A stretch of 64,000 nt of DNA from Thermococcus thioreducens. GTDB taxonomy: Archaea > Methanobacteriota_B > Thermococci > Thermococcales > Thermococcaceae. Location of the stretch: NCBI RefSeq assembly GCF_002214545.1, contig NZ_CP015105.1:930001-994000 (forward strand). The letters run 5' to 3'. Each line of letters opens with the position of its first letter. Position 1 is the stretch's first letter. A program made the translations under genes and the position numbers. Below the pieces are notes generated by a model. It had not been told where the DNA came from. It made no database searches and saw only the letters and a list, made by a program, of their open reading frames with translations. Shown here in pieces: positions 26,566 to 40,038 of the stretch.

Positions 26566-26597
26566 TCCTTGGCGCATATGCAGGATTGGTGGGAAAA

Positions 26598-26852
26598 GTG
26601 GGACTAACTAAAGTGGATACCAAGGGCAGAGTAGTCATTCCAAAGGATATTAGAAAAAAGATGGGCATAAGGCCGGGAGAAGAGTTCCTGATAACAGAGA
26701 TAGATGGAGATACGATAGTCATGAAACGCTTTGACGTTAAAAAGATGCTTGAAGAGATGATAAAGAACGCCAAGGGCATCAACCTCGAAGAACTCAAGGA
26801 AGAAACAGAAAAAGAGGGGAACAGGGTTGCGAAAGAGCTCTATGGCCTCTAA
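26598..26852 (+). CDS. vapB: AbrB-type antitoxin, VapB
   Basis: An 84-residue antitoxin with an N-terminal AbrB/SpoVT swapped-hairpin domain (TKVDTKGRVVIPKDIRKKMG, then GEEFLITEIDGDTIVMK) and a Glu/Lys-rich C-terminal tail which should bind the toxin. The domain binds DNA and usually autoregulates the operon. I chose the GTG at 26598 because GGTGGG precedes it; a TTG at 26586 lacks a site. The vapC start lies inside its last codons (11-base overlap). Confidence 0.83.
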   Translation: MGLTKVDTKGRVVIPKDIRKKMGIRPGEEFLITEIDGDTIVMKRFDVKKMLEEMIKNAKGINLEELKEETEKEGNRVAKELYGL

Positions 26853-27255
26853 ATTTCTACTGGACACCAACGTCTTCATAGCTGCGGTGAAAACGGGGCG
26901 GACAGACACCACAGAGCTCTTACTCCATGTTTTATCCGGTGATAAATACCGGGTTATCGGAAACGATGTCCTGCTGGCAGAGTATCGGAAATACGCTGAG
27001 AGACTCAACGCCTTGGATTTCTACGAGTTCCTGAGGCTCAGAATGGAAATAGTCAATCCCTCCAGAAAAGAGGTGCTTCGTCTCCTTCCCCACTTTCCCC
27101 CTTCACAGATCGCCGATGCAGTGCACGCGGCCACCTGTCTGAAAACGGGAGCGATTCTAATAACTAATGACCGGCATTTTGAGAAAGTGGCCGAAGAAGG
27201 CCTGATTAAAGTGTGGAGCATAAGCGAAGCAATACGAAAGATTCTGAGGAGGTGA
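26842..27255 (+). CDS. vapC: PIN-domain toxin, VapC
   Basis: A 137-residue PIN ribonuclease, the toxin of the VapBC pair, which cleaves RNA. The first acidic residue is in FLLDTNVFIAA, the second in VLLAEYRKYAE and the third/fourth in QIADAVHAATCL and ILITNDRHFEKV. ATG at 26842 starts the conserved MASKFLLDTN; it overlaps the antitoxin by 11 bases, so translation is coupled. The next gene begins 4 bases after its stop. Confidence 0.88.
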   Translation: MASKFLLDTNVFIAAVKTGRTDTTELLLHVLSGDKYRVIGNDVLLAEYRKYAERLNALDFYEFLRLRMEIVNPSRKEVLRLLPHFPPSQIADAVHAATCLKTGAILITNDRHFEKVAEEGLIKVWSISEAIRKILRR

Positions 27256-27259
27256 TCCC

Positions 27260-28024
27260 TTGCTAAAATACATCGGCTACTTCGCAGTTGGAGTCTTTAT
27301 CGGCATTTTGGCAGCGTTATTCGGCCTCGGAGGGGGATTCCTGATAGTCCCTACGCTCAACTTCCTCGGCGTTGAGATACACCACGCCGTCGGAACTTCC
27401 AGCGCGGCCGTCGTCTTTACCTCCCTCAGCTCAGCCATAGCATACTCAAGGCAGAAGAGAATACACTATAAGGTCGGCCTCCTCTTGGCTTCAACGGCCG
27501 TGATAGGAGCGTACATAGGTGCATGGATGACGAGCTTCATAAGCGCCGGTCAGCTCAAGGTCATCTTCGGTGCGGCCCTCGTTGTAGTGGCCATCAGGAT
27601 ATACCGGAAGAAGACAGCCGAGCCGAGCGAGGTTAAGCTTGAGGAAGTTGAGGTCAACTACAAGCTCGTCCCGGTTGGAGGGTTCTTCGCGGGAATAGCC
27701 AGCGGTCTCCTCGGCGTTGGAGGGGGCATAATCAACGTGCCCTTCCTGACGTACCTCGGCCTGCCGATACACTACGCGGTCGCTACCTCAAGCTTTGCGA
27801 TAGTCTTCACAGCAACCGCCGGAGCGCTCAAGCACTACGCCATGGGCAACGTTGAAACTCAGTGGCTGGTCCTCCTCGTCCCGGGCCTCATCATAGGTGC
27901 CCAGCTCGGTGCGAGGATAGCAAAGCGGACGAGGGCTTCATCCCTGAAAAAGGCTTTCGCGGTCGTTATGGCCCTCCTTGCCCTGAGGATGATACTGAAG
28001 GGCCTCGGTCTTCCGGTTCCATGA
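27260..28024 (+). CDS. TauE/SafE-family membrane exporter, copy A
   Basis: A 254-residue membrane protein with about eight helices. The hallmark segments are GVFIGILAALFGLGGGFLIVPTL in the first half and GIASGLLGVGGGIINVPFL in the second, the two repeats of the TauE/SafE (sulfite exporter) family. The start is TTG with GGAGGTGAT 4 bases upstream. A similar protein is encoded at 28572, suggesting gene duplication with a different gene between. The sulfur-containing substrate is not proven; family members move sulfite, sulfoacetate or other anions. The 3' end overlaps the opposed membrane gene by 59 bases. Confidence 0.9.
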   Translation: MLKYIGYFAVGVFIGILAALFGLGGGFLIVPTLNFLGVEIHHAVGTSSAAVVFTSLSSAIAYSRQKRIHYKVGLLLASTAVIGAYIGAWMTSFISAGQLKVIFGAALVVVAIRIYRKKTAEPSEVKLEEVEVNYKLVPVGGFFAGIASGLLGVGGGIINVPFLTYLGLPIHYAVATSSFAIVFTATAGALKHYAMGNVETQWLVLLVPGLIIGAQLGARIAKRTRASSLKKAFAVVMALLALRMILKGLGLPVP

Positions 28025-28571: not shown

Positions 28572-29303
28572 ATGCTGAGTTATCTCCTCGATTTCCTGCT
28601 CGGCATCGGCATCGGCCTGATAGCAGGTCTCTTCGGGGTCGGCGGGGGGTTCCTCATAGTCCCCGCTCTGACGATACTGGGCCTGCCGATACACGTGGCC
28701 ATCGGGACTAGCTTGGCCTGCATAGTCCTCAGCTCCCTCTCCGCGGCGGTCACCCATATACGGCGGGGAACTGTTCTCTACCGTGTTGTGGCCATTAAAG
28801 AGGTATTTTCGGTGCCCGCTGCCTTAGTGGGTGCTTACGCCTCCTCACTGCTCCCTGAGGATATTCTCAGGTTCATGTTCATACTGCTCCTCCTCTACCT
28901 CTCGTTTAAGATGTGGAGGGACGAAACCCCTACCGACCTTGAGGGAGGAGAACTAAAGACCCTCCGAATTTCGGCGGTGGGGATTCTCTCGGGCCTGATC
29001 TCTGGACTGCTGGGCATCAGTGGGGGCATTTTGAACGTCCCCCTTTTCCATGCCTATGTAAGGATACCCATGAAATATGCCGTTGGCACCTCCAGCCTGG
29101 CCCTTTTTTTCACCGCTCTTGCGGCCTCTTTTGGTCACTACCGCCTCGGGCAGGTTGACTTACATACGGCTCTTCTTCTTGCACCAGGCCTTCTTGTGGG
29201 GGCCAGAATTGGGGCCATCCTAGTTCATAGGGCTCACCCTCGGCACCTTCGAAAGGCATTTTCCGCTATTTTGGTGGTTGTGGCAATCAAAATGCTCCTT
29301 TAG
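28572..29303 (+). CDS. TauE/SafE-family membrane exporter, copy B
   Basis: A 243-residue paralog of the gene at 27260, with the same two repeats: GIGIGLIAGLFGVGGGFLIVPAL and GILSGLISGLLGISGGILNVPLF. Eight or so helices are seen. Two distinct copies in 2 kb imply different substrates or expression. The start ATG is probably leaderless. No sulfur-metabolism gene adjoins it, so the transported anion is unknown. Confidence 0.9.
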   Translation: MLSYLLDFLLGIGIGLIAGLFGVGGGFLIVPALTILGLPIHVAIGTSLACIVLSSLSAAVTHIRRGTVLYRVVAIKEVFSVPAALVGAYASSLLPEDILRFMFILLLLYLSFKMWRDETPTDLEGGELKTLRISAVGILSGLISGLLGISGGILNVPLFHAYVRIPMKYAVGTSSLALFFTALAASFGHYRLGQVDLHTALLLAPGLLVGARIGAILVHRAHPRHLRKAFSAILVVVAIKMLL

Positions 29304-29492: not shown

Positions 29493-29516
29493 GGAACGCT
29501 CTGAAACGTTCGTTTC
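29493..29516 (+). promoter_or_regulatory. Operator-like inverted repeat before cassette copy 1
   Basis: GGAACGCTCTGAAACG (29493-29508) is followed by TTCGTTTC, so GAAACG-TT-CGTTTC forms an inverted repeat with a 2-base gap. The motif begins 73 bases upstream of the ATG at 29566. The related sequence GGAACGTTTTGAAACG lies 77 bases upstream of the paralogous gene at 31796. A weak TATA-like CAAATAG is at 29528. Similar sequence at the same distance before two paralogs suggests a common regulator; this is inferred. Confidence 0.55.
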
Positions 29517-29565
29517 GTCGGAGTCCTCAAATAGGTTTGGGGCGTAGCGTTCATTGGTGATGCCC

Positions 29566-30771
29566 ATGAAGGGGATGAAGGGCTTTGCACTGGCCCTGGC
29601 AATATTGCTGGTTGGAAGCGTGATACCCCTGGGACTGGCAGAGAGCAACAACACCACGGGGTCGTACACAGGAGTCCTCGACAACAGCACCAGGGAGATG
29701 GTGATAGCGGGTCAGCTGATTGATCAGCTTCAGAGGCTGAGCAGGTTCGCCGAAGATAAGATAGAACCAATAAAGGACAGGCTACCCGAGAACTCGACTG
29801 TACTAACCCACTACGAGCTCGCTGAGGACTACAGGGAAAAGGCGGTGAGTGAATACGAGGCCAGTAACTACTACAGCTCGATACTCGACAGCCTCACAGC
29901 AATGCACCACTACAAGGTTGCCCTCTCAGCACTTAAGGAAGGCAGAGAAAAGGCTCAGGATGTAAGGGAACGCATCAAACTGGAAATCGAGCGCCTCAGT
30001 GAGTACTTCAGGTTCGTTGAGAAGACCATAAGGCTGGCGGAGAACCAGGGGATAGACGTGAGCAACCTCACCGCACTTTACAACGAGACCAAGGATGCCT
30101 ATAAAGTTGTACTGGATGACCTTAAGGCCGGAGACTACGAAAAGGCGAGGGCAGACTATGAAGTCGCCAAGGAGAAGAAGGCCCTTCTCGACAGGGAGCT
30201 GAGAAAGGTCCGCGAGGAGCTCGCCTATGCCAACGCCGATAAGATCGTCAAGGACTTTCTGATCAAGGGTGAGAAGGGAATGGAGATAGCCCAGAAGGCA
30301 ATCGAAGTTGGGGGGGAGAACGGCTACAACGTGACGGAGCTCCGGGAGAGGCTCAATGCTTTCTCGGAGGTTTACAGCCAGGTCAAGGCCCTGGCCGACG
30401 AGGGCAAGTGGGAGGACGCCCTCACAGTCATGAAAGACAACAGGGAAACAATAATCGAGTTCCACAGGGCTGTTGAGTTCGTACTCAGGAAGGTTCGCGA
30501 GAGGGAGCTTGATGAAAAGCTGAAGGACGTCCGCGCTTTCCTTATGGAGATGAACGGCAGGATTCAGAAGGACGCAAAGGCGCTCCGCGAGCTCAAGAGC
30601 AGGGGCGTCGACACCACCCGGGCAGAGATCCAGCTGAAAGTAGCTATCCAGGAGCTCAGGATAGGCGTCGAGCTTCTAAAAGCGAAGAAACCCCTCCAGG
30701 CCAAGGCACACTTTGCAATAGCGCTGGAGGTGCTCCACAGGGTGGATGAGTTCATACTCGCCCACTCCTGA
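29566..30771 (+). CDS. Secreted coiled-coil protein, cassette copy 1
   Basis: A 401-residue exported protein of unknown function. The signal peptide is KGFALALAILLVGSVIPLGL, then a short Asn/Thr-rich stretch with N-glycosylation sites (NNTTGS). The remainder is nearly all helix with heptad-like repeats. Repeated helical units include YELAEDYREKAVSEYEASNY, followed later by similar segments. No C-terminal anchor is visible, so the protein is released or bound to other surface components. ATG at 29566 follows GGTGAT by 4 bases. The next gene, coding a membrane-anchored HTH protein, starts 33 bases after the stop. Confidence 0.78.
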   Translation: MKGMKGFALALAILLVGSVIPLGLAESNNTTGSYTGVLDNSTREMVIAGQLIDQLQRLSRFAEDKIEPIKDRLPENSTVLTHYELAEDYREKAVSEYEASNYYSSILDSLTAMHHYKVALSALKEGREKAQDVRERIKLEIERLSEYFRFVEKTIRLAENQGIDVSNLTALYNETKDAYKVVLDDLKAGDYEKARADYEVAKEKKALLDRELRKVREELAYANADKIVKDFLIKGEKGMEIAQKAIEVGGENGYNVTELRERLNAFSEVYSQVKALADEGKWEDALTVMKDNRETIIEFHRAVEFVLRKVRERELDEKLKDVRAFLMEMNGRIQKDAKALRELKSRGVDTTRAEIQLKVAIQELRIGVELLKAKKPLQAKAHFAIALEVLHRVDEFILAHS

Positions 30772-30804
30772 CCTTTCCTTTTTAGTTTATGGGGGGATGA
30801 TTAA

Positions 30805-31641
30805 ATGAGACTCACAGTTGCGGCCCTCATGATGATAACGCTCATCCTCCTGCCCGGGGTTAGTTCCTATACCGTTTCATCCCTGGTTTTGACGGTTTAC
30901 AATGACGGCTACACCAAGGTTGAATACGAAATCCTACCCTCGGAGTATTCTTCCCAGGTTGAACTCCCCCTCCTCGGCGACCATTACGAGAACGTTATCG
31001 TCGAGGACGGGAACGGAAATCCCCTCAACTTCAGGCTTGAGAACGGAAGCCTTCTCATCTATTCCGGGAACGCTGAAGTAGTCAAGGTCTCCTACTACAC
31101 TCCAGACCTGACCGTGAAGCAGGGCGTGGTGTGGACGCTTAACATTGCGACCAACGATTCCTTCACAGTTGTGCTGCCCGCAAACGCCATAGTGGTCGAC
31201 CTCAGCGACATACCCCTTGAGATAGCGGGGAACTCGATAACCATGCCCCCCGGAAACCAGAGCGTTTCCTACACGCTCAGCGGGAGAGGGGTCGGAGGAG
31301 AGAAAGGAGCGGACAGTTTAGTGTATCTCGCCCTCCTGGGAGGCCTCGCGGTAGTCGGGGGCTCCGCCTACGCCCTATGGAGAAAGAAAAAGGGTCAGAG
31401 CTCAATGCCAAGCCGTGAGGAGTTCCAGGCCAGGCTTGAGAACCTCGACCTCAACGAGGAGGAGAGGCGTGCGCTGCTCTACATCTTTGATAAGGGTGGA
31501 AAGGCCAGTCAGGCTGAGGTCAGGGAAGCGATAGGCCTGCCTAAAACCACCGCATGGAGGATGTTCAAGCGCCTTGAGCGGAGGGGGCTGGTGAAAGTTC
31601 TGAAGGGCAGAAAGGAAAACTGGGTGGAGCTAAGGTTTTAG
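30805..31641 (+). CDS. Membrane-anchored winged-HTH protein, cassette copy 1
   Basis: A 278-residue one-component sensor-like protein. A signal/anchor segment (LTVAALMMITLILLPGVSSY) is followed by an extracellular beta-rich domain (about 22-165) with N-glycosylation sites. A transmembrane helix lies at about 175-195 (LVYLALLGGLAVVGGSAYAL), then a basic KKKGQ. The cytoplasmic winged helix-turn-helix at 205-278 contains EEERRALLYIFDKGGKASQAEVREAIGLPKTTAWRMF (helices 1-3; longest piece not quoted) and ends NWVELRF. It resembles archaeal DUF7343/DUF7345-type regulators. It could sense an outside signal and control the coupled secreted-protein gene. Confidence 0.8.
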   Translation: MRLTVAALMMITLILLPGVSSYTVSSLVLTVYNDGYTKVEYEILPSEYSSQVELPLLGDHYENVIVEDGNGNPLNFRLENGSLLIYSGNAEVVKVSYYTPDLTVKQGVVWTLNIATNDSFTVVLPANAIVVDLSDIPLEIAGNSITMPPGNQSVSYTLSGRGVGGEKGADSLVYLALLGGLAVVGGSAYALWRKKKGQSSMPSREEFQARLENLDLNEEERRALLYIFDKGGKASQAEVREAIGLPKTTAWRMFKRLERRGLVKVLKGRKENWVELRF

Positions 31642-31718
31642 ACCCTATGAGGGCGGATGAAACCTCCAACCCTATTTTTTGCCCTCCTGAATTCTATTCT
31701 GCAGGAGAGAAACTCGGA

Positions 31719-31734
31719 GGAACGTTTTGAAACG
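31719..31734 (+). promoter_or_regulatory. Operator-like inverted repeat before cassette copy 2
   Basis: GGAACGTTTTGAAACG includes the inverted repeat CGTTT-TG-AAACG. It begins 77 bases before the ATG at 31796. TATA-like CTAATATACG is at 31753-31762, about 20 bases further on. The position upstream of TATA fits either an activator site or a start-up repressor site. It corresponds to the site at 29493. Confidence 0.55.
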
Positions 31735-31795
31735 AGCAAAGTCCGGCGGGTTCCTAATATACGTGTGGACACCTACACAATATCAGGTGAGAGCC

Positions 31796-33064
31796 ATGAA
31801 GATGAGTATGAAAACCCTGCTGGTGCTCTTTATAGGGGCACTGATACCACTGAGCACTGCCGTATGGGCGGCCAGCGTAAACGCCACAGCAACAAACACA
31901 ACCGCAGTGAGCAACGTCTCGGTGGTCAACGCCACGAACGTGACCAACACCACCCCCGTTAACATGACCAACGTCACCAATACAACGAACACGAGCGTTA
32001 TGGCATACAACCTGCTCCTGATACTGGATAAGGTCGCCAACTACACCACAGACCTGATAGATGAGCTCAATGCGAGCAACGTCACGATCTCCAATTACAC
32101 CCTTGAGCTCTACTCTCAGGCTGAAGCAATGCATACCAAGGCGTGGGAGCTTTACAACGCCGGCAACTACAGCGAGAGCATAAACGCCTCCATGAACGCC
32201 CTTTACCTCTACAAGGAGGTCATAGAGGAGCTTACCGACTACTACGAAGAGCACAAGGAAGAGAAAATGGAGGAGCAGTACGAGTATTATGAACTCATAA
32301 TGGACGCTAAGGAGGAGCTTCACAGGGCCGCGGAGTACTTCCCGTACGTGGAGAAAGTTATCGCGGAGGCTGAAGCGGAAGGCCTCAACGTGACCCAGAT
32401 TAAGGAACTCTACAATGCAACCAAAGAAGCTTACAAGGTCGTCGCCCAGGATCTTGCCAGCGGTAACGTCACAGCGCTCAAGGCGGACCTTGAGTATGCA
32501 GAGGAGCTCATGGACAAGCTTGAGGATGCCGTTGAGGAGCTCCAGGAGCAGATAGTCAGCGCAAAGGCCGATGAGATAAGCCAGGCCTTCATGGAGAAGC
32601 TCCAGGAGCAGATGGAGCTCATGCAGGAACTAATGGCCCTGATCCAGAACTCCACGATAAACGCCACTTACCTCCAGGAGAACCTCATGGAACTCCAGAT
32701 GATGTATGAGGAGTTCAACGCCCTCGTCGAGAGCGGCCAGTACGAGGAAGCCCTCGACATGCTCCACGACATCAACGAGGAGCTGAAGGAGATAGTCGAG
32801 GAGACTGGGGAGATAGAGAAGGAGTACAAGGAAGAGAAAGAGGAGAAAGAGCACGAGGATGAAGATGATGAATACGAGGATGACCACAAGGAGAAGGACG
32901 AGCACAAGGACGAATACACCGACGATGAGAGTGAAGATGACCAGGATGGGGACTACGAGGAACAGGACTCCCACGATGATGACAACGGCCAGCATGAGGA
33001 CTCTGAGGATGGCAACGGGGGCGAGGAACACAACGGTGAAGACGACTCGGAGGATAGTGAGTGA
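31796..33064 (+). CDS. Secreted coiled-coil protein with acidic tail, cassette copy 2
   Basis: A 422-residue exported paralog of the 29566 product. Its signal peptide is KTLLVLFIGALIPLSTAVWA. A Thr/Asn/Val-rich, N-glycosylation-site-rich region (many NAT/NVT sites) covers about 25-75. A helical part follows, with repeats such as YSQAEAMHTKAWELYNAGNY, matching units of copy 1. About 80 residues at the C-terminus are a run of Asp, Glu, His, Lys and Gly, strongly acidic and able to bind divalent metals. There is no membrane anchor. ATG at 31796 is chosen with AGGTGAGAGCC before it; the frame upstream lacks a signal peptide. Confidence 0.78.
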   Translation: MKMSMKTLLVLFIGALIPLSTAVWAASVNATATNTTAVSNVSVVNATNVTNTTPVNMTNVTNTTNTSVMAYNLLLILDKVANYTTDLIDELNASNVTISNYTLELYSQAEAMHTKAWELYNAGNYSESINASMNALYLYKEVIEELTDYYEEHKEEKMEEQYEYYELIMDAKEELHRAAEYFPYVEKVIAEAEAEGLNVTQIKELYNATKEAYKVVAQDLASGNVTALKADLEYAEELMDKLEDAVEELQEQIVSAKADEISQAFMEKLQEQMELMQELMALIQNSTINATYLQENLMELQMMYEEFNALVESGQYEEALDMLHDINEELKEIVEETGEIEKEYKEEKEEKEHEDEDDEYEDDHKEKDEHKDEYTDDESEDDQDGDYEEQDSHDDDNGQHEDSEDGNGGEEHNGEDDSEDSE

Positions 33065-33120
33065 ACCTCCCCTTCTAATATCTTTTTAAGGAGGATTTCT
33101 TAACTTCTGGAGGTGCTGTG

Positions 33121-34056
33121 ATGAGGAGCAAAGCAGTGATAGTGCTTGCAGTTGCACTCATGATCCTGCCTCTTGTAAGCGGGCAGTACTCCGTCGAGTC
33201 CCTCAGCCTTACAGTCTACTCCGACGGGTACGTTAAGGTAGTTGAGGCTATCGTTCCCGAGAACTACACGGTCAGCTTTTCTGTCCCGCTCCTCGCTACC
33301 AACGTTGAGGGGCTGACCGTTATCGACGAGAGCGGAAAACCCCTGCCGTACGAGATAAACGGCTCCACCCTCACAGTGTATTTTGAAAACGCCACCGGTG
33401 TTAGAGTAACCTATTACACTCCCGACCTGACCGCGAAAAACGGCGCCATATGGAGCGTTCATTTCGGCTCAACCGTTCCGGTTAAAATAACCTTTCCGGA
33501 TAACGCTGTCATAGTCGACCTCACCGATATACCCCTTGAGATAAACGGGAACTCTATACTAATGCCTGCCGGAAACCAGACGGTTTCCTATGTCCTTGAA
33601 TACCGACCAACGGGGGCAGAGATTCCAACGGCCCCGACCTCTGGAATGACTGCTGAACCTTCCAACTCGACGGTGTCATCTAATCCTGGATCCTCACCTC
33701 CCACCTCAGGAGGAGGCTCCACAAACTGGACAATGCTCGGTATCCTGGGCCTGCTTGTTCTTGCCGCTGGGGGAGGATTTCTCTACATGAAGCGCGGAGA
33801 GAAAGAGGATGTAGCTCCAGGCATCAGCAGGGAGGACTTCGAGAAGCGCCTTAGGGGGTACGAACTGACGAAGGACGAGGAGAAAGCCCTGCTCTACCTG
33901 TTCGACAGGGGTGGAAAGGCCAAGCAGGCAGAGGTCCGGGAGATGCTCGGTATCCCGAAGACGACCGCGTGGAGAATGTTCCAGCGCCTTGAGAAGCAGG
34001 GACTCGTGAGGGTTTACAAGAAGAAGAGGGAGAACTGGGTGGAGCTGAGGCTTTAG
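33121..34056 (+). CDS. Membrane-anchored winged-HTH protein, cassette copy 2
   Basis: A 311-residue paralog of the 30805 product. Signal segment at the N-terminus (AVIVLAVALMILPLVSG), extracellular beta-rich domain (about 20-180), a Ser/Thr/Pro-rich linker (about 165-205), transmembrane helix WTMLGILGLLVLAAGGGFLY at about 202-220, then a basic loop and a C-terminal winged HTH containing GGKAKQAEVREMLGIPKTTA and ending NWVELRL. The linker is longer than in copy 1. ATG at 33121 lies 5 bases after GGAGGTG. Possible promoter element CTTTTTAAG is at 33081-33090, so it may have separate control as well. Confidence 0.8.
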   Translation: MRSKAVIVLAVALMILPLVSGQYSVESLSLTVYSDGYVKVVEAIVPENYTVSFSVPLLATNVEGLTVIDESGKPLPYEINGSTLTVYFENATGVRVTYYTPDLTAKNGAIWSVHFGSTVPVKITFPDNAVIVDLTDIPLEINGNSILMPAGNQTVSYVLEYRPTGAEIPTAPTSGMTAEPSNSTVSSNPGSSPPTSGGGSTNWTMLGILGLLVLAAGGGFLYMKRGEKEDVAPGISREDFEKRLRGYELTKDEEKALLYLFDRGGKAKQAEVREMLGIPKTTAWRMFQRLEKQGLVRVYKKKRENWVELRL

Positions 34057-34204
34057 ACGGGTCTTTGTTTGGGATTTCTATCTAATTTCAATTTTCATTC
34101 CTAACGGGGTGAAATCCTCCAAGGCCTTGGGGCGTGATTAACGAAAGTTATTGACATGGTATAATACGGGGATTATAACTTTTTTATGAGCCGTAAAGTT
34201 GGCA

Positions 34205-34282
34205 TTAAAGCCCAGTGGGGTATTCAATGAACATCTTGTCCTCCTCAAACCTAAACCCTGTTTTGAGAAGCCTTCCAAACAT
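34205..34282 (-). pseudogene. Possible fragment of a lost gene
   Basis: A 25-residue stretch (MFGRLLKTGFRFEEDKMFIE, ending PTGL) on the minus strand in a 259-base gap after the cassette. It reads like the tail of a small-molecule acetyltransferase, but it has no ribosome site. The rest of the gap (34057-34204) contains no other feature that I can support. Confidence 0.25.
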
Positions 34283-34315
34283 GCACCATCAACACGAAAA
34301 AGGGAGAAGAAAGAA

Positions 34316-36550
34316 TCACCTTATCCTTGAGCCGAGCTTTATTTCCTTGTCCGGCATGAGTAACGCAACGCGCTCGCCGTCGTCAGCCGCTAAGAGCATT
34401 CCCTGGCTTTCCACACCGCGAAGCTTCTTGGGTTCGAGGTTTGCTATGATGACGACGTAGTGGTTGAGCAGCTCTTCCGGCTTGTAGTACTTCTTCAGCC
34501 CGGCAACGAGCTGCCTGATCTCGTCGCCAAGGTCAACCTTGACCACGTAGAGCCTGTCGGCGTTGGGGTGGTCTTTGACCTCGATTATTTTTCCAACCCT
34601 CAGGTCGAGCTTCATGAAGTCATCAAAGCTGATATACTCCACGCTTTCACCACCTTTTCCCTTTTTCTTCACCTTCTCCTTCTTCGAGGCCTTTCCGGCC
34701 TTTTCGGCTTTGGCCTCCAGTTCATCCCCGTAGATGCTCTTAAGGATTGCCATCGCTTCTTCCCTTTTCGCCTCCCCGAAGCGCTCGATGGTAATTTTCC
34801 CCCCGTTGTCCCGCCTGTAGTACTTGTCGAGGAGCAGTTTGGCGCTCTCCGGGTTGCCCCTGGCTATGTAGTTCACGATGAAGTAAATTATGTCCTCGTC
34901 GGTTACCTTCTTGAACATTGGAGTGGCTTTTCTAACCTTATGGCCTGCAGGAATCTCGGTGAACTCCCAGCGCTTGAGCTCCTCGAGGTTGAGGAGGTGC
35001 CATATCTTCTCGCTCGCATCCGGAAGGAACGGCTCAAGGAGGATTCCCAACGCTTTAACTATCTGGAGGGAGATGTTTACCGTGGTGGCCGTCCTAACGC
35101 GGTCGGTTTTGGCGGTCTTCCACGGCTTCTGGTAGTCGAAGTAGCGGTTGCCGAAGATGGCCAGCTCCATGACCCTCTTCAACGCGTCCTTGAACTTGTA
35201 CTGGGCTATCAGCTTTCCGGTCTCCTTAAAGGCCCTCTCAATCTCCTCGAAGGCCTGCCTGTCGAGGTCGTCCAGCTCGCCTCTCTCCGGCACAGTTCCG
35301 TTGAAGTAGCGGTTGACGAAGGTGAGTGCGCGATGCACGAAGTTTCCGAGGTTGTTTACCAGTTCTTCGTTTATCTTGCTCTTGAAGTCTGCAAAGCTGA
35401 AGTCGCTGTCGCGGGTTTCGGGCATTATGGCGGTGAGATAGTAGCGCAGGTAATCCGCTGGAAACGCATCAAGGAACTCGTGAACCCATATCGCCCAGTT
35501 CCTGCTCGTCGAGAACTTCTTGCCCTCAAGGTTGAGGTACTCGTTGGCAGGGATGTCGTATGGCAAAAGCCACTCGGCCCCGGTTTCTTCGTCTTTGTAT
35601 TTCCCGTAGGCCATCAGGAAGGCCGGCCAGAATATCGCGTGGAAGGGCACGTTGTCCTTGCCGATGAAGTGGATTACCTTTGTCTCTCCGTCGAGGTTGA
35701 GCCAGAACTTCTTCCACTCATTCTCCCTTCCCTCTCTCTTCAGGTGCTCAACGGTGATGCTGATGTATCCTATCGGTGCCTCGAACCAGACATAAAGTAC
35801 CTTTCCTTTAACGTCCTCATCGTCGAGCGGGACCGGAATACCCCAGTCAAGGTCGCGCGTTATGGCCCTCTCTTCGAGGCCCTCCTTTATCCAGCCGAGG
35901 ACGGTGTTCCTGACGTTCGGCTTCCAGTGCTCCTGGCTTTCCACCCAGGCCTTGAGCTTCTCCTCGAAGTCCTGCATGCGAATATAATAGTGAGCCGAGT
36001 CCTTGAAGGTTATCGGGTTGCCACAGATGTTGCAGCGTGGATTGATCAGCTTCTCCGGTGTGAGTGGATGCCCGCAGACTTCACACTGATCGCCGCGCTG
36101 ACCCTCTGCACCGCAGTAGGGGCAGGTGCCTATGACGTACCTGTCGGGCAGGAACATCTTGTCGTGCTCGCAGTAGGCCTGTTTGGTGACCTTCTTGACG
36201 AGGTGGCCGTTTTCGAGGGCTTTTAGGAAGAACTCTTGGCTTACCCGGTAGTGAACCGGGAGCTCGGTTCTTCCAAAGAAATCGAAGCTTATCTTGGCCC
36301 TCTCGAAGGTCGTCTTTATGTGTTCGTGGAACTCATCGACGATCTCCCTGGCACTTCTTCCCTCTTTGAGAGCACGGAATGTTATCGGAGTCCCATGTTC
36401 ATCCGTCCCACATATGAAAAGGACTTCCTCGCCCTTCAGGCGGAGATAGCGAACGAAAATGTCCGCTGGTAAATACGCTCCTGCCAGGTGTCCCGCGTGA
36501 ATCGGCCCGTTAGCGTAAGGGAGTGCAGATGTTACCATGTACCTGACCAT
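34316..36550 (-). CDS. metG: Methionyl-tRNA synthetase with C-terminal tRNA-binding domain
   Basis: A class I synthetase of 744 residues that charges tRNA-Met. The HIGH motif is in PYANGPIHAGHLAGA, the KMSKS-like loop is KKFSTSRNWAIW. Two zinc knuckles are seen: CPYCG...CEVCG and CNICG. The C-terminal EMAP-II/Arc1p-like domain (about 640-744) includes SFDDFMKLDLRVGKIIEVKD, joined by a Lys-rich linker (about 610-635). In some archaea this domain is a separate protein; here it is fused. The ATG at 36550 has GGTGG before it. TATA CTTATAAGG is at 36576-36584. Confidence 0.96.
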   Translation of the reverse strand: MVRYMVTSALPYANGPIHAGHLAGAYLPADIFVRYLRLKGEEVLFICGTDEHGTPITFRALKEGRSAREIVDEFHEHIKTTFERAKISFDFFGRTELPVHYRVSQEFFLKALENGHLVKKVTKQAYCEHDKMFLPDRYVIGTCPYCGAEGQRGDQCEVCGHPLTPEKLINPRCNICGNPITFKDSAHYYIRMQDFEEKLKAWVESQEHWKPNVRNTVLGWIKEGLEERAITRDLDWGIPVPLDDEDVKGKVLYVWFEAPIGYISITVEHLKREGRENEWKKFWLNLDGETKVIHFIGKDNVPFHAIFWPAFLMAYGKYKDEETGAEWLLPYDIPANEYLNLEGKKFSTSRNWAIWVHEFLDAFPADYLRYYLTAIMPETRDSDFSFADFKSKINEELVNNLGNFVHRALTFVNRYFNGTVPERGELDDLDRQAFEEIERAFKETGKLIAQYKFKDALKRVMELAIFGNRYFDYQKPWKTAKTDRVRTATTVNISLQIVKALGILLEPFLPDASEKIWHLLNLEELKRWEFTEIPAGHKVRKATPMFKKVTDEDIIYFIVNYIARGNPESAKLLLDKYYRRDNGGKITIERFGEAKREEAMAILKSIYGDELEAKAEKAGKASKKEKVKKKGKGGESVEYISFDDFMKLDLRVGKIIEVKDHPNADRLYVVKVDLGDEIRQLVAGLKKYYKPEELLNHYVVIIANLEPKKLRGVESQGMLLAADDGERVALLMPDKEIKLGSRIR

Positions 36551-36656
36551 TTTAACCACCGTCCCGGCAATGGGTTTAGCCCCTTATAAGACCTGCGGGT
36601 TTTAAACATTACGGTGGGTTATTATGTCTGGGGAAAAATATGTAGGGTTTGATATA

Positions 36657-36914
36657 TCACTTTCCGAGGGAGAGGTTTTCGGTCCTTACAAGGATGGCAT
36701 TTTTTGGAACCTCGACCTCTCCCCGGGTGATTATCAAAGCTCCGTCGTAGGTTGTCATTGTCAGCTTGGTTTTCCTGAAGCCCCCAGTTTCACCCACTAT
36801 AAGAAGGGGCCTTTTCTTGAGTTCAAGGAACTTCCTGAACTCTTCCGGCTCTACAAAGATTAAAACACCACCGGCTATAACCCTGTTGGCATCGACGGCC
36901 ATACCGCACCCCAT
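36657..36914 (-). CDS. Hypothetical small beta-rich protein
   Basis: An 85-residue cytosolic protein: GGVLIFVEPEEFRKFLELKK, then LIVGETGGFRKTKLTMTTYD and ILVRTENLSL at the end. ATG at 36914 with CCGGTGATGTT before it. No family is recognised. It may belong to a Thermococcales group of hypothetical proteins. It lies downstream of metG and against the following toxin-antitoxin genes on the other strand. Confidence 0.62.
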   Translation of the reverse strand: MGCGMAVDANRVIAGGVLIFVEPEEFRKFLELKKRPLLIVGETGGFRKTKLTMTTYDGALIITRGEVEVPKNAILVRTENLSLGK

Positions 36915-37014
36915 AACATCACCGGAAAAGTTTAAGGCATCCCCTTGATGTGGTTTTCGGTGTGATGGCGGAAGGTTTATTTTTGGATAGAGATAAACCA
37001 GTAACGGTGGGAGT

Positions 37015-37182
37015 ATGGAAGTAGTCAAGCGGCTCCAACAGTTGGAACATCGCATTGAGAGGCTGGAGAGATTGATGGAATTTGAGGAGCTTACTGAGGA
37101 AGAGATACGGGAACTTGAATATCGGAGGAAAAAGCGGGACTTCATAGGGGAGGATGAGTTCTGGAGGGAGCTGGGTGTATAA
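37015..37182 (+). CDS. relB: Small RelB-like antitoxin
   Basis: A 55-residue protein overlooked at ordinary length limits. It is very charged and helical: MEVVKRLQQLEHRIERLERL, with FWRELGV at the C-terminus. The ribosome site GGTGGG lies 3-4 bases before the ATG; a T-rich promoter element TTTATTTTTGG is at 36976-36986. The last bases overlap the start of the RelE-like toxin (GTGTATAA), as is common in RelBE pairs. It has no ribbon-helix-helix I can recognise, so it may neutralise toxin mostly by its C-terminal helix. Confidence 0.75.
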   Translation: MEVVKRLQQLEHRIERLERLMEFEELTEEEIRELEYRRKKRDFIGEDEFWRELGV

Positions 37183-37453
37183 ACTTCTTTTTCACAGGGA
37201 AGTCCTTAAAGATATGAAAAAGATCCCTCCAGAAACGCAACTCAGAATAAAGCAGGTTCTCCAAACTCTCAAAATTGCCCCCGAGTCCATACATAAAAAA
37301 CCGTTGAAAGGATATGATGATCTTTTCTCGGTGAGGGTTGGGGATTACAGGATTATCATTGAACCTAACCACGAGGAGAACATTATTTTTGTGTGGATGA
37401 TTTCTCACAGGGGTAAAGTCTATGAAAGGTTAAAGAGACGAAAGGGTGAGTAA
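37175..37453 (+). CDS. relE: RelE-like toxin
   Basis: A 92-residue RelE/ParE-fold protein. Start MYKLLFHREVLKDMKKIPPE, then the beta strand core with LKGYDDLFSVRVGDYRIIIE and FVWMISHRGKVYERL. The R(V)GDYRxxY pattern and closing basic residues are typical of ribosome-dependent mRNA interferases of the RelE family. The GTG at 37175 is used because it overlaps the antitoxin stop and matches the usual start MYKL; upstream GTG-like sites lie inside the antitoxin. It starts the pair 2 bases before the queD-like gene. Confidence 0.86.
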   Translation: MYKLLFHREVLKDMKKIPPETQLRIKQVLQTLKIAPESIHKKPLKGYDDLFSVRVGDYRIIIEPNHEENIIFVWMISHRGKVYERLKRRKGE

Positions 37454-37455
37454 TT

Positions 37456-37803
37456 TTGAAGGCCAGAATCGTCGAGCGCTTCAAGTTTGAGGCCGCCCAC
37501 GCCGTTATCATAGACGGAAAGCCCGAGGAGATACACGGCCACACGTTCTGGCTTGAGGTGGCTGTTGAAGGCGAAATTAAGAAGGGCTACGTGATGGACT
37601 TCCTTGAGCTGAGGAAAATCGTGGATGAAATCATCGGGAAGCTTGACCACAGAAACCTAAACGCTCTCTTCGAAAACCCGACGACCGAGAACGTGGCCCT
37701 CTGGATAGCGGGAGAGGTCGGAAAAAAACTACCCGACGGCGTCAAGCTCAAACGTGTGATCCTTTGGGAGGGCGAGGAGAACGGGGTGGAGTTTGAGTTC
37801 TAA
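37456..37803 (+). CDS. 6-pyruvoyl-tetrahydropterin synthase family protein
   Basis: A 115-residue enzyme of the PTPS/QueD fold. Zinc ligands are H15 (FEAAHAVI), H27 and H29 (EEIHGHTF). The usual catalytic Cys, four residues before HGH, is absent, and Glu residues lie there instead; Thermococcales PTPS-III proteins have this change and were tied to making 6-hydroxymethyl-dihydropterin for folate-type cofactors. Start is TTG after GGGTGA. A QueD role in archaeosine synthesis is the alternative. It sits between two toxin-antitoxin pairs. Confidence 0.78.
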   Translation: MKARIVERFKFEAAHAVIIDGKPEEIHGHTFWLEVAVEGEIKKGYVMDFLELRKIVDEIIGKLDHRNLNALFENPTTENVALWIAGEVGKKLPDGVKLKRVILWEGEENGVEFEF

Positions 37804-37849
37804 GAAACGTTTTTATCCCCCAATGTGGAAGTTAGCAATGGTGAACGGA

Positions 37850-38023
37850 ATGTCCGAGGTTACTTCAGAACGGATGTTAAAGCTGTATTCTCATCTTTTC
37901 AAGGAGGCTCTTGAACTTAAGAAGCTTATCGAGGTGAAAAAAAAGGAAGTCAGACCCGGAATGTTTGGGAAGGGGAACGCTGAGGAGTTCAAAAGGTATA
38001 GGCTTGAGGTGTATGAGCAGTGA
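37850..38023 (+). CDS. Small VapB-like antitoxin
   Basis: A 57-residue helical, charged protein beginning MSEVTSERMLKLYSHLFKEA. GGTGA lies 5 bases before this ATG, with TTTTTATC at about 37810-37818 as TATA. Its stop overlaps the start of the PIN-domain toxin (GTGA). No AbrB domain is visible; the DNA-binding region may be absent or of another type. The pair is assigned mostly from position. Confidence 0.68.
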   Translation: MSEVTSERMLKLYSHLFKEALELKKLIEVKKKEVRPGMFGKGNAEEFKRYRLEVYEQ

Positions 38024-38493
38024 TTTTTATAGACTCAAGCGTTCTCTACAACTACCTTATCGAAACCAGCCTTACCGAATACGCCGTTGATGTTCTTGAG
38101 TCCCGAGAAGGGAAACTAACTTCAGACACCGTCGTTGATGAGTTATTTTATGCACTCATCAGGAAGCTTGGTGAGAAGGAGTACAACGCAATGTCAATCT
38201 GGAAAGTTAAGGAGCTTCTCAGGAACGACGCAGAGTTCAGGAGACGCGCTTCTGATGCCATATCGGACATCTTAGCACTTATTGACGCAAAAGATGTTTT
38301 ACTGGTTTCTGACTCCCGGGACTGGCTGACCGTTGCCACGTTCGTTCATGATTACTCTCTCCTTCCCCACGACGCCAAAATTCTCGCCACTGCCTTGGAA
38401 TACAACTGTGACAAGCTCGCCACCCTCGACGAGGACTTTGAAGCGGTGAGGGACGTCATCAAGCTCGTTCCGGAGGGATTCTGGGAAGAGTAA
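38020..38493 (+). CDS. PIN-domain toxin, VapC-like
   Basis: A 157-residue PIN-domain protein. Acidic residues are in MIFIDSSVLYNYLIE, in VVDELFYALIRKLG, and in LLPHDAKILATALEYN and LATLDEDFEAVRDVI. It is a VapC type RNase, more distant from the one at 26842. GTG start overlaps the small upstream gene by 4 bases. The gap after it (38494-38627) has a small fragment and the left end of a TnpB element. Confidence 0.85.
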   Translation: MIFIDSSVLYNYLIETSLTEYAVDVLESREGKLTSDTVVDELFYALIRKLGEKEYNAMSIWKVKELLRNDAEFRRRASDAISDILALIDAKDVLLVSDSRDWLTVATFVHDYSLLPHDAKILATALEYNCDKLATLDEDFEAVRDVIKLVPEGFWEE

Positions 38494-38529
38494 GAGTCAA
38501 TATCTCTAATAGAAGAGTTTACTGAGAAT

Positions 38530-38613
38530 ATGGAATTCCAAGAGTTCAAACGGGACAAGAAGACACAGTTTGAAGTTATCCGTACCTTTCATACATGCAT
38601 ATTTCGGAGTTGA
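38530..38613 (+). pseudogene. Possible gene fragment at the TnpB element edge
   Basis: A 27-codon stretch, MEFQEFKRDKKTQFEVIRTF, then HTCIFRS and a stop. The first half reads like the start of a coding region and the second half loses this character 14 bases before the element, so a gene may have been cut short here. There is no strong ribosome site. Low confidence. Confidence 0.25.
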
Positions 38614-38727
38614 CTTTTTTCTTTTGCAAGCCTCGCCCTTTAGGGCGGGGTACAGTGTTCGAGAATTTGGCTCTTGAGCAGGAAAGCAACACTTTTTTAA
38701 AGCATAAAACCCATACCATACTTTGAA

Positions 38728-40038
38728 ATGAAGCGTTCAGTAACGGTTAAACTTCAACCATCAAAGGCGCAGGAGAAAATCCTCTTTGAGTTAGCTTACG
38801 CTTCAGCAGTAATTTGGAACAAGCTCAACTACCAGAGGCTCAAACAATTCAAAGAATTCGGGAAAATCGACTTTAACGGAACAGAAAAGGAAGCATACTA
38901 TGAGTTCAAAAACTGGATTGGCGGTTCAACAGTTCAGCAATTAGCCCGAAAGAACGCTGAAAGCTGGAGGAGTTTCTTTTCCCCCAACAAGAAGAAAAAG
39001 AAGGGGGGACTGCCCTCTTGGTTGAAACCAAGACCACCAAGGTTTATTAAGGGAGAAGACGGGAGAAAACTCTTCATTATTCCTCTCAGGAACGACCAGT
39101 ACAGGATTGATGGTAACGTTATCGAGCTCAGAAGGCTCGGAAAGTTCGGTAGGCTTAGAATCCAGTTCAAGGGCAGGATACACTTGAAGGGCAAGCAGGG
39201 AAGGTTAGAAATAACTTACGACCCGGTAAAGCGGAAGTGGTACGCTCACATCAGCATTATCGTTGAGGAGAAACTTGGGGGCGAGGAATGGGTTAAACTC
39301 CCGAGAACCCCAAAAGGAAGCCTTTTCGCGGGGATTGACTTGGGAGTGAACAACTTAATGGCCGTTTACGTTGAAAACGGAAAAAGCTTCCTCGTGAACG
39401 GGAGACCACTCAAAAGTATTGACTTTTACTGGAGGAGAAAAATTGCAGAGTATCAGTCAAAACTCAACAAGTCTGGAGCTAAAACGAGCAGGAAGTTAAA
39501 AAGAATGCACGAGAAGGCTAAACTACAAGCCAAGCACTACATTAACACCGCAGTTAGACAAACTGTTAGAAGGCTTTACAATCTTGGAGTTTCTAAGATT
39601 GTCGTGGGTTATCCGAAGGGAATCGCCAGAAATTCTGATAAGGGTAAAAAGCAGAATTTTCTCCTCTCCCACGTTTGGCGGTTTAACACTGTGATTCAGC
39701 GACTCAAGGAAGTTGCTGAAGAGTATGGTATCAGCGTTGTTGTCGTTAATGAGGCCTTCACTTCGCAATCGTGCCCTCTCTGCGGCCAACGCCATTCTGG
39801 TGGAAGAATTTCCAGGGGTTTGTTTAAGTGCCGTAGAGAGGGCGTTGTTATGAATGCGGACTTAGTTGGAGCGTTTAACATTTTGAAAAAAGTTGCCAAA
39901 ACCATAACCCCGAGCCTGCCGGGTTTAACGGTGGGTAGGGGTAATGGGGGCAAGGCCGTCCCCGAGGGGTCGAAGACCCGCTTTATTTTGGGCCTAAATG
40001 AGACCCCTCAAACCTCCCCGTCAATGGCGAGGGGTTAA
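38728..40038 (+). CDS. tnpB: TnpB, RNA-guided nuclease of IS605 family, copy 2
   Basis: A 436-residue protein very similar to the product at 8185-9459. RuvC residues: D in GIDLGVNN, E in VVNEAFTS and D in MNADLVGAFNI. The zinc finger again has CPLCGQRH and only one cysteine (FKCRREG) in the second half. The N-terminus MKRSVTVKLQPSKAQEKIL is complete. It is intact and probably active; movement would need a TnpA in trans. Its 3' end and the following 37 bases should give the right-end RNA. Confidence 0.93.
   Translation: MKRSVTVKLQPSKAQEKILFELAYASAVIWNKLNYQRLKQFKEFGKIDFNGTEKEAYYEFKNWIGGSTVQQLARKNAESWRSFFSPNKKKKKGGLPSWLKPRPPRFIKGEDGRKLFIIPLRNDQYRIDGNVIELRRLGKFGRLRIQFKGRIHLKGKQGRLEITYDPVKRKWYAHISIIVEEKLGGEEWVKLPRTPKGSLFAGIDLGVNNLMAVYVENGKSFLVNGRPLKSIDFYWRRKIAEYQSKLNKSGAKTSRKLKRMHEKAKLQAKHYINTAVRQTVRRLYNLGVSKIVVGYPKGIARNSDKGKKQNFLLSHVWRFNTVIQRLKEVAEEYGISVVVVNEAFTSQSCPLCGQRHSGGRISRGLFKCRREGVVMNADLVGAFNILKKVAKTITPSLPGLTVGRGNGGKAVPEGSKTRFILGLNETPQTSPSMARG

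Follow-up and report, generated by a model that had tools for sequence, protein, structure and literature searches.

A secreted helical protein and a membrane-anchored winged-helix protein form a conserved gene pair in Thermococcales, with a candidate operator at the promoter of the secreted partner

Two consecutive gene pairs in Thermococcus thioreducens belong to a conserved archaeal unit, in which a gene for a secreted, all-helical protein (S) adjoins a gene for a membrane protein (R) that combines an outer β-domain, one membrane helix and an inner winged helix-turn-helix (wHTH). Among 148 S matches in 94 Thermococcales genomes, 131 are immediately followed by R on the same strand, and most S promoters carry a candidate operator. 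With moderate confidence, we propose that S and R constitute a two-gene circuit in which R would act as the receptor, or the anchor, of the S rod and would control S transcription through this operator.

The window analysed here is a stretch of 64,000 nucleotides (positions 930001-994000) of a 2.07-Mb single-contig Thermococcales genome. The open reading frame (ORF) list places the four genes consecutively on the + strand in the order S1-R1-S2-R2, from 29560 to 34056 (Table 1), with the S1 start codon an ATG at either 29560 or 29566. Intergenic gaps of 33 bp (S1-R1) and 56 bp (S2-R2), together with homology between the units, bear out the initial annotation, which had described two successive units of identical order, each with an HTH gene closely 3′ of a surface gene. 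That annotation also called the locus a duplicated cassette. The units are indeed homologous (BLASTP identity of 29% with E = 3e-32 for S1 and S2, and 42% with E = 7e-88 for R1 and R2), but the copy is not recent. Because S1 orthologues from different genomes reach 96% identity, whereas S1 and S2 are only 29% identical, the duplication is judged to be old, and on sequence grounds the two units are ancient paralogues; the low identities of both paralogous pairs against far higher orthologue identity rule out a recent tandem duplication. S2 contains 21 N-glycosylation sequons in total, and 50 of the 89 residues of its tail (32795-33061) are D or E. The start coordinate of the initial annotation, 29493, is the first base of the S1 candidate operator.

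Table 1. Features of the S1-R1-S2-R2 locus (positions in the window).
Feature	Position	Strand	Description
S1 candidate operator, 24-bp	29493..29516	+	GGAACgctctGAAACgttcGTTTC; half-sites 29493, 29503, inverted 29512
S1 probable BRE/TATA	29524..29535	+	TCCTCAAATAGG; conserved beside operator; putative promoter
S1	29560..30771	+	Secreted helical protein; model a rod of three-helix bundles with about four helical repeats of ~85 residues
R1	30805..31641	+	Signal/N-terminal helix, then outer β-domain, membrane helix, cytoplasmic wHTH
R1 outer β-domain	30868-31278	+	
R1 membrane helix	31312-31392	+	
R1 cytoplasmic wHTH	31414-31632	+	
S2 candidate operator	31709..31733	+	GAAACtcggaGGAACgttttGAAAC; half-sites 31709, 31719, 31729, exactly 10 bp apart
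S2 inverted half-site GTTCC (31750) abutting probable TATA box	31749..31761	+	GGTTCCTAATATA; putative promoter
S2	31796..33064	+	Secreted helical protein, N-terminus rich in N-glycosylation sequons, acidic tail
R2	33121..34056	+	Outer β-domain, one membrane helix, cytoplasmic wHTH

S1 and S2 each possess a single hydrophobic segment, which is the N-terminal signal. A model of S1 (28 sequences; mean pLDDT 85.5) is all helix, and helices of up to 59 residues span successive three-helix bundles in a spectrin-like layout. HMM-HMM comparison of segments of the S profile revealed internal repeats of ~85 residues: segments 2 and 3 align with P = 4e-10, segment 1 aligns with both at ~1e-5, and a fourth is weaker. 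S had been called an exported coiled-coil protein; its secretion and all-helical character stand, but in the model tandem three-helix bundles on long common helices take the place of a plain coiled coil. From the model we infer that S may be a rigid rod in or below the surface layer. Neither S1 nor S2 matched a Pfam or NCBIfam family above cut-off, including any known S-layer family or lattice domain, and a fold search of solved structures (PDB) with S returned none at E ≤ 0.001. One distant S reaches 26.4 bits for the SbsC spectrin-like repeat (cut-off 26), and several others have tails rich in His and Gly. Membership in the YfdX, EzrA or TPR families was rejected, as these matches were sub-threshold and of the kind typical of helical bundles. 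The cold-induced membrane glycoproteins CipA and CipB of P. furiosus were also ruled out as S, being solute-binding proteins (PMC10746257).

Both R proteins have an N-terminal hydrophobic segment and one internal segment (residues 171-191 in R1 and 203-224 in R2). The R1 model (41 sequences; mean pLDDT 89.8) consists of a β-domain (residues 22-158), a membrane helix (170-196) and a wHTH (204-276). The hydrophobic segments, this model and Pfam all confirm the architecture first assigned to R, namely an extracellular domain, one membrane helix and a cytoplasmic winged HTH. R1 exceeds the Pfam cut-offs for TrmB, HTH_24 and MarR_2, with the cytoplasmic domain scoring 34.3 bits against TrmB (cut-off 25.6). 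R2 scores 33.1 against DUF7343 (cut-off 27.6), a family matched by 40 of the 41 R sequences at E ≤ 0.01. Residues of the wHTH rank among the most conserved of R, and P246, T248, T249, W251 and R252 are invariant in the 41 sequences. The outer part of R matched no Pfam or NCBIfam family above cut-off. According to Foldseek, the solved folds nearest to the R1 model are the N-terminal β-domains of M1 aminopeptidases (E about 2e-5, with a TM-score of only about 0.3 over the whole query); this is a resemblance of fold at most, and R has no catalytic domain. R carries a DNA-binding domain and at least one membrane segment in the same chain, as transmembrane transcription regulators do, and may regulate transcription from the membrane, to which the candidate operator at S genes points indirectly. 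A viral origin was discounted, as viral contigs held no relative of R.

R is present in 90 of the 94 Thermococcales genomes and S in 83-84. A search for co-occurrence across this order had been proposed in the initial annotation, which held that its reading would fall if the two families lay mostly apart in other genomes; in most cases they are neighbours. Two adjacent pairs occur at 25 genomic places, in tandem at 24 of these, and tandem pairs are found in about 23 genomes. At the search threshold, 19 R genes lack S. The metG-linked R genes of Pyrococcus-type genomes have a diverged S directly upstream, which rules out their being orphans, and other R genes without S form a clade behind a DUF134-like gene. 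The two complete genomes of the g4 genus that lack S (G073 and G076) have no full-length R either, with G073 giving one weak match to the R profile.

The contexts of the pair are unrelated, as it lies beside metG, beside SufS-like genes, in metal islands and on a plasmid. In other families of the class, R likewise comes after a gene for a secreted helical protein (L216-L220). In metagenome-assembled genomes of Bathyarchaeota/Hecatellales, S lies before R at two loci (L187, L192), after R at four (L173, L182, L183, L188) and a few kb away at one (L190). An S profile made from Thermococcales only matched these S proteins mostly at E values of 5e-35 to 1e-13 (weaker for L182, 5e-4, and L180, 2e-4), and gave 0 matches to 1,800 shuffled sequences. 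Because S and R co-occur in these distant genomes, their association either is old or spread by transfer of the whole unit.

S does not always adjoin a complete R. Beside the S3 copies, the next gene encodes an R-like protein of ~195 aa with the outer domain and anchor and no HTH. Such a partner ends after the membrane segment at five loci (L141, L221, L222, L223 and L241), and at two others (L225, L229) it has a CGP-CTERM-like tail, one of which scores 19.5 bits (cut-off 21). Judged by gene content, what stays beside S is the outer domain and its anchor, whether or not a DNA-binding part is attached. Since some S genes pair with an R-like protein that keeps only these parts, the outer domain of R looks like the partner of S, and the HTH-less proteins are the strongest sequence argument that the two work together. 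They also give indirect support to the idea that the outer domain and S might form an obligate ligand-sensing heterodimer. Evolutionary distances for S correlate at 0.896 with those for R, at 0.896 with those for the outer domain and at 0.762 with those for the wHTH, values that include shared species history. For comparison of cognate with swapped pairing within a locus, only three of the retrieved loci contained two complete pairs.

The regions upstream of S exhibit a recurrent design, with GRAAC half-sites 10 bp apart and an inverted GTTYC beside a likely TATA box. Among 76 non-redundant S upstream regions, defined as having <10% of 9-mers in common, we counted 244 half-sites, whereas dinucleotide-shuffled sequences gave 97 ± 10. 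Direct GRAAC pairs spaced by exactly 10 bp number 62 (at most 3 in the shuffles), and inverted GTTYC is present 26, 29 and 13 times at distances of 9, 19 and 29 bp (no spacing exceeded 3 in the shuffles). With the operator pattern specified as GRAAC-N5-GRAAC, GRAAC-N4-GTTYC or GRAAC-N14-GTTYC, matches precede 60 of the 76 non-redundant S genes, 1 of 85 R genes and 15 of 355 other ORFs, several of the 15 lying divergently beside S or being recently retrieved S genes not yet marked as such. The full operator is absent from the metG-linked Pyrococcus S-R lineage (7/7) and from 9 other non-redundant S upstream regions; some of the 9 belong to incomplete or mis-started ORFs. Across the order, 61 of the 150 exact matches listed for GRAACGN4GRAACG lie ≤450 bp upstream of S (~0.06 expected). 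A pattern search of the T. thioreducens genome located exact matches to GRAACGNNNTGAAACG only at 29493 and 31719, both in S promoters; the pattern was derived from the S1 and S2 sites, such that the informative part is that no other genomic match exists.

Three features argue that these sites are kept for operator function rather than through common ancestry. At loci with the order R-S (L173, L183, L188), the sites precede S and not R. S genes with an HTH-less partner or with no partner retain the operator (L221-L236, with lone S genes in L226-L236). Finally, inspection by eye revealed that in many genomes the operator contains the stop codon of a small gene located upstream, and that in T. 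thioreducens this gene is no longer intact and the operator sequence is kept. Because the operator is common to S genes, S is the likely target of the neighbouring HTH protein.

The circuit that we propose would begin with export of S and its assembly into a rigid helical rod in or under the surface layer, where the outer β-domain of R could be its membrane receptor or anchor. As the operator is privately associated with S genes and R is the HTH protein that accompanies S from lineage to lineage, we infer that the R wHTH recognises the GRAAC/GTTYC operator in the S promoter region. S transcription would then depend on whether the outer domain is occupied, by S or by something that S presents. 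Extra S copies, including those with an HTH-less anchor or no partner, have the same operator, through which an HTH-bearing R might act in trans, and the regulon would be essentially all S genes of the cell. We slightly favour R as an activator whose activity would fall once S fills it, because the main operator sites lie immediately 5′ of a core promoter that shows no clear BRE, as would fit activation. In many cases, however, the last half-site occupies the BRE position directly beside the TATA box, an arrangement compatible with repression. A broader reading, which we hold with somewhat more doubt than confidence, is that of an archaeal surface-homeostasis circuit older than Thermococcales, wherein the membrane anchor of the rod is the transcription factor of the rod gene, occupancy is read as expression, and one private operator wires every S gene.

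The initial annotation had viewed the locus as a compact surface signalling system. The conserved unit, the operator at S and the HTH-less partners agree with this view and extend it beyond a single locus, and the sensing role is plausible. Since one clade of pairs resides in a metal-resistance island, an external cue is as possible as self-sensing of the surface. R might then be an ordinary membrane one-component regulator that senses an external cue such as a metal directly, with S as its target or effector and not its input. We regard this as unlikely but a serious contender. At five loci on chromosomes or contigs, and on a plasmid of Thermococcus peptonophilus with two S-R pairs, the metal-island pairs are oriented divergently to an ArsR/SmtB gene and a gene for a P-type ATPase, and several of these heavy-metal islands also include FTR1 or a MerA-like oxidoreductase. 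Together with the strongly acidic S2 tail and the His/Gly-rich ends of other S proteins, they suggest that the cue is surface stress or metals, at least in this clade. Membrane-bound one-component regulators are, moreover, common in archaea (PMC10269533). However, most pairs are not near metal genes, and a pure sensor does not predict HTH-less partners that keep the outer domain beside S.

The same HTH-less partners would fit an R that chiefly tethers S to the membrane, as its anchor or in its assembly, with a wHTH that is secondary or has other targets and another factor reading the operator. The presence of the operator at S genes with no neighbouring R points in the same direction. We consider this arrangement improbable, given that the wHTH holds the invariant residues named above, that R adjoins S in nearly all genomes and that the operator tracks S. 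That S and R are functionally unrelated neighbours is very improbable. Conserved gene order in closely related Thermococcus genomes would fit this view, but the pair recurs at unrelated places, in other families of the class, in another archaeal lineage and in either gene order, and these multiple contexts largely refute the idea.

In bacterial co-component systems, a membrane regulator and an extracytoplasmic partner are encoded in one operon (PMC9214523). S-R resembles the examples ToxR/ToxS and VtrA/VtrC (PMC9214523) in having a membrane transcription factor with an extracytoplasmic domain and a neighbouring partner gene, in operon organization and as a fast-evolving cassette; the adjacency of S and R genes matches the gene arrangement of these systems. 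In contrast, the partner of the VtrA/VtrC type is a lipocalin-like β-barrel input subunit whereas S is modelled as a helical rod, the HTH is N-terminal in ToxR-type proteins and C-terminal in R, and the S gene itself carries the operator, unlike the partner genes of ToxR/ToxS and VtrA/VtrC. No homology of S-R to either system was found. Because its partner is helical and its HTH lies at the opposite end, S-R is outside the VtrA/VtrC superfamily, and it works like co-component systems in outline.

Secreted all-helical proteins whose genes are controlled by the membrane system that they may regulate are also known from CpxP/CpxA and ZraP/ZraS. These are two-component kinases, unlike S-R, and Pfam scans found no sequence or fold link between them and S-R. 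The cytoplasmic domain of R resembles TrmB/DUF7343-type winged HTH proteins. Unlike the TrmB sugar regulators, R has its HTH at the C-terminus with no sugar-binding domain after it (Pfam), and it has a signal, an outer β-domain and a membrane helix. Transmembrane transcription regulators (TTRs) are widespread in archaea, and Thermococci are rich in them (PMC10269533); like R, they unite a DNA-binding domain and a membrane segment in a single-pass chain. The passages of that survey consulted here count TTRs and mention no secreted partner, operator or member of the R family.

The ways in which archaea survey and control their cell surface are poorly understood, and S-R is a candidate system for this in nearly all Thermococcales. 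With a candidate receptor, its putative secreted partner and a defined 24-bp candidate operator, each step is open to simple experimental tests. It also suggests that cassettes of a regulator with an extracytoplasmic partner, as in ToxR/ToxS, may have arisen independently in archaea from unrelated folds. As the initial annotation had supposed, the pair seems not to have been described as a system: we found no published account by topic or under the guessed tags PF1204/PF1205 and TK1050-TK1052, in a search that covered few subscription papers. In public annotation, the T. peptonophilus copies of the pair are listed as ‘hypothetical protein’ and ‘helix-turn-helix domain-containing protein’ or ‘MarR family’.

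The same 10-bp-phased site as at the genes for S, the secreted all-helical protein, is found in a few genomes of Thermococcus, where it separates a cyclase-like gene from a gene for another secreted protein (sequence VTVILVSDN...VIIIGGPDA). This location may represent a second target.

S also occurs among metal genes, where an ArsR/SmtB regulator and a heavy-metal P-type ATPase are encoded divergently from a clade of its pairs with R, the membrane-anchored winged HTH protein (L262, L263, L264, L265, L266 and L267), and FTR1 and MerA-like genes lie close by. TauE/SafE-like genes lie just upstream of S1, the first S gene of the window, and a similar gene adjoins S-R pairs in other genomes. The overlapping AbrB-like and PIN-domain genes of the window likely form a toxin-antitoxin pair.

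At L127, L129, L131, L133, L135, L136, L138 and L175 the R genes form a clade of their own and are preceded by a DUF134-like gene, and neither S nor the operator was seen at these eight loci. Three S copies are broken or truncated: stops disrupt the reading frame of those in two genomes, and a third genome carries a lone S of 276 aa.

Features of the window and of compared loci
Feature	Location	Position
Phased site GGAACGNTTTGGAACG	L249	898
Same site	L254	926
Same site	L255	859
Same site	L256	
Same site	L257	
Two S-R pairs	T. peptonophilus plasmid NZ_CP014751.1 (L262)	33296-39252
TauE/SafE-like membrane transporter genes, two in tandem	window, just upstream of S1	27260-28024, 28572-29303
AbrB-like and PIN-domain genes	window	26586-27255
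Small RelE-like gene, HREVLKDMKKIPPETQLRIKQVLQTLK...	window	37154-37453
Damaged S	G084:C3	145651-146798
Damaged S	G083:C9	9573-10723
Damaged S	L140	1176-2006
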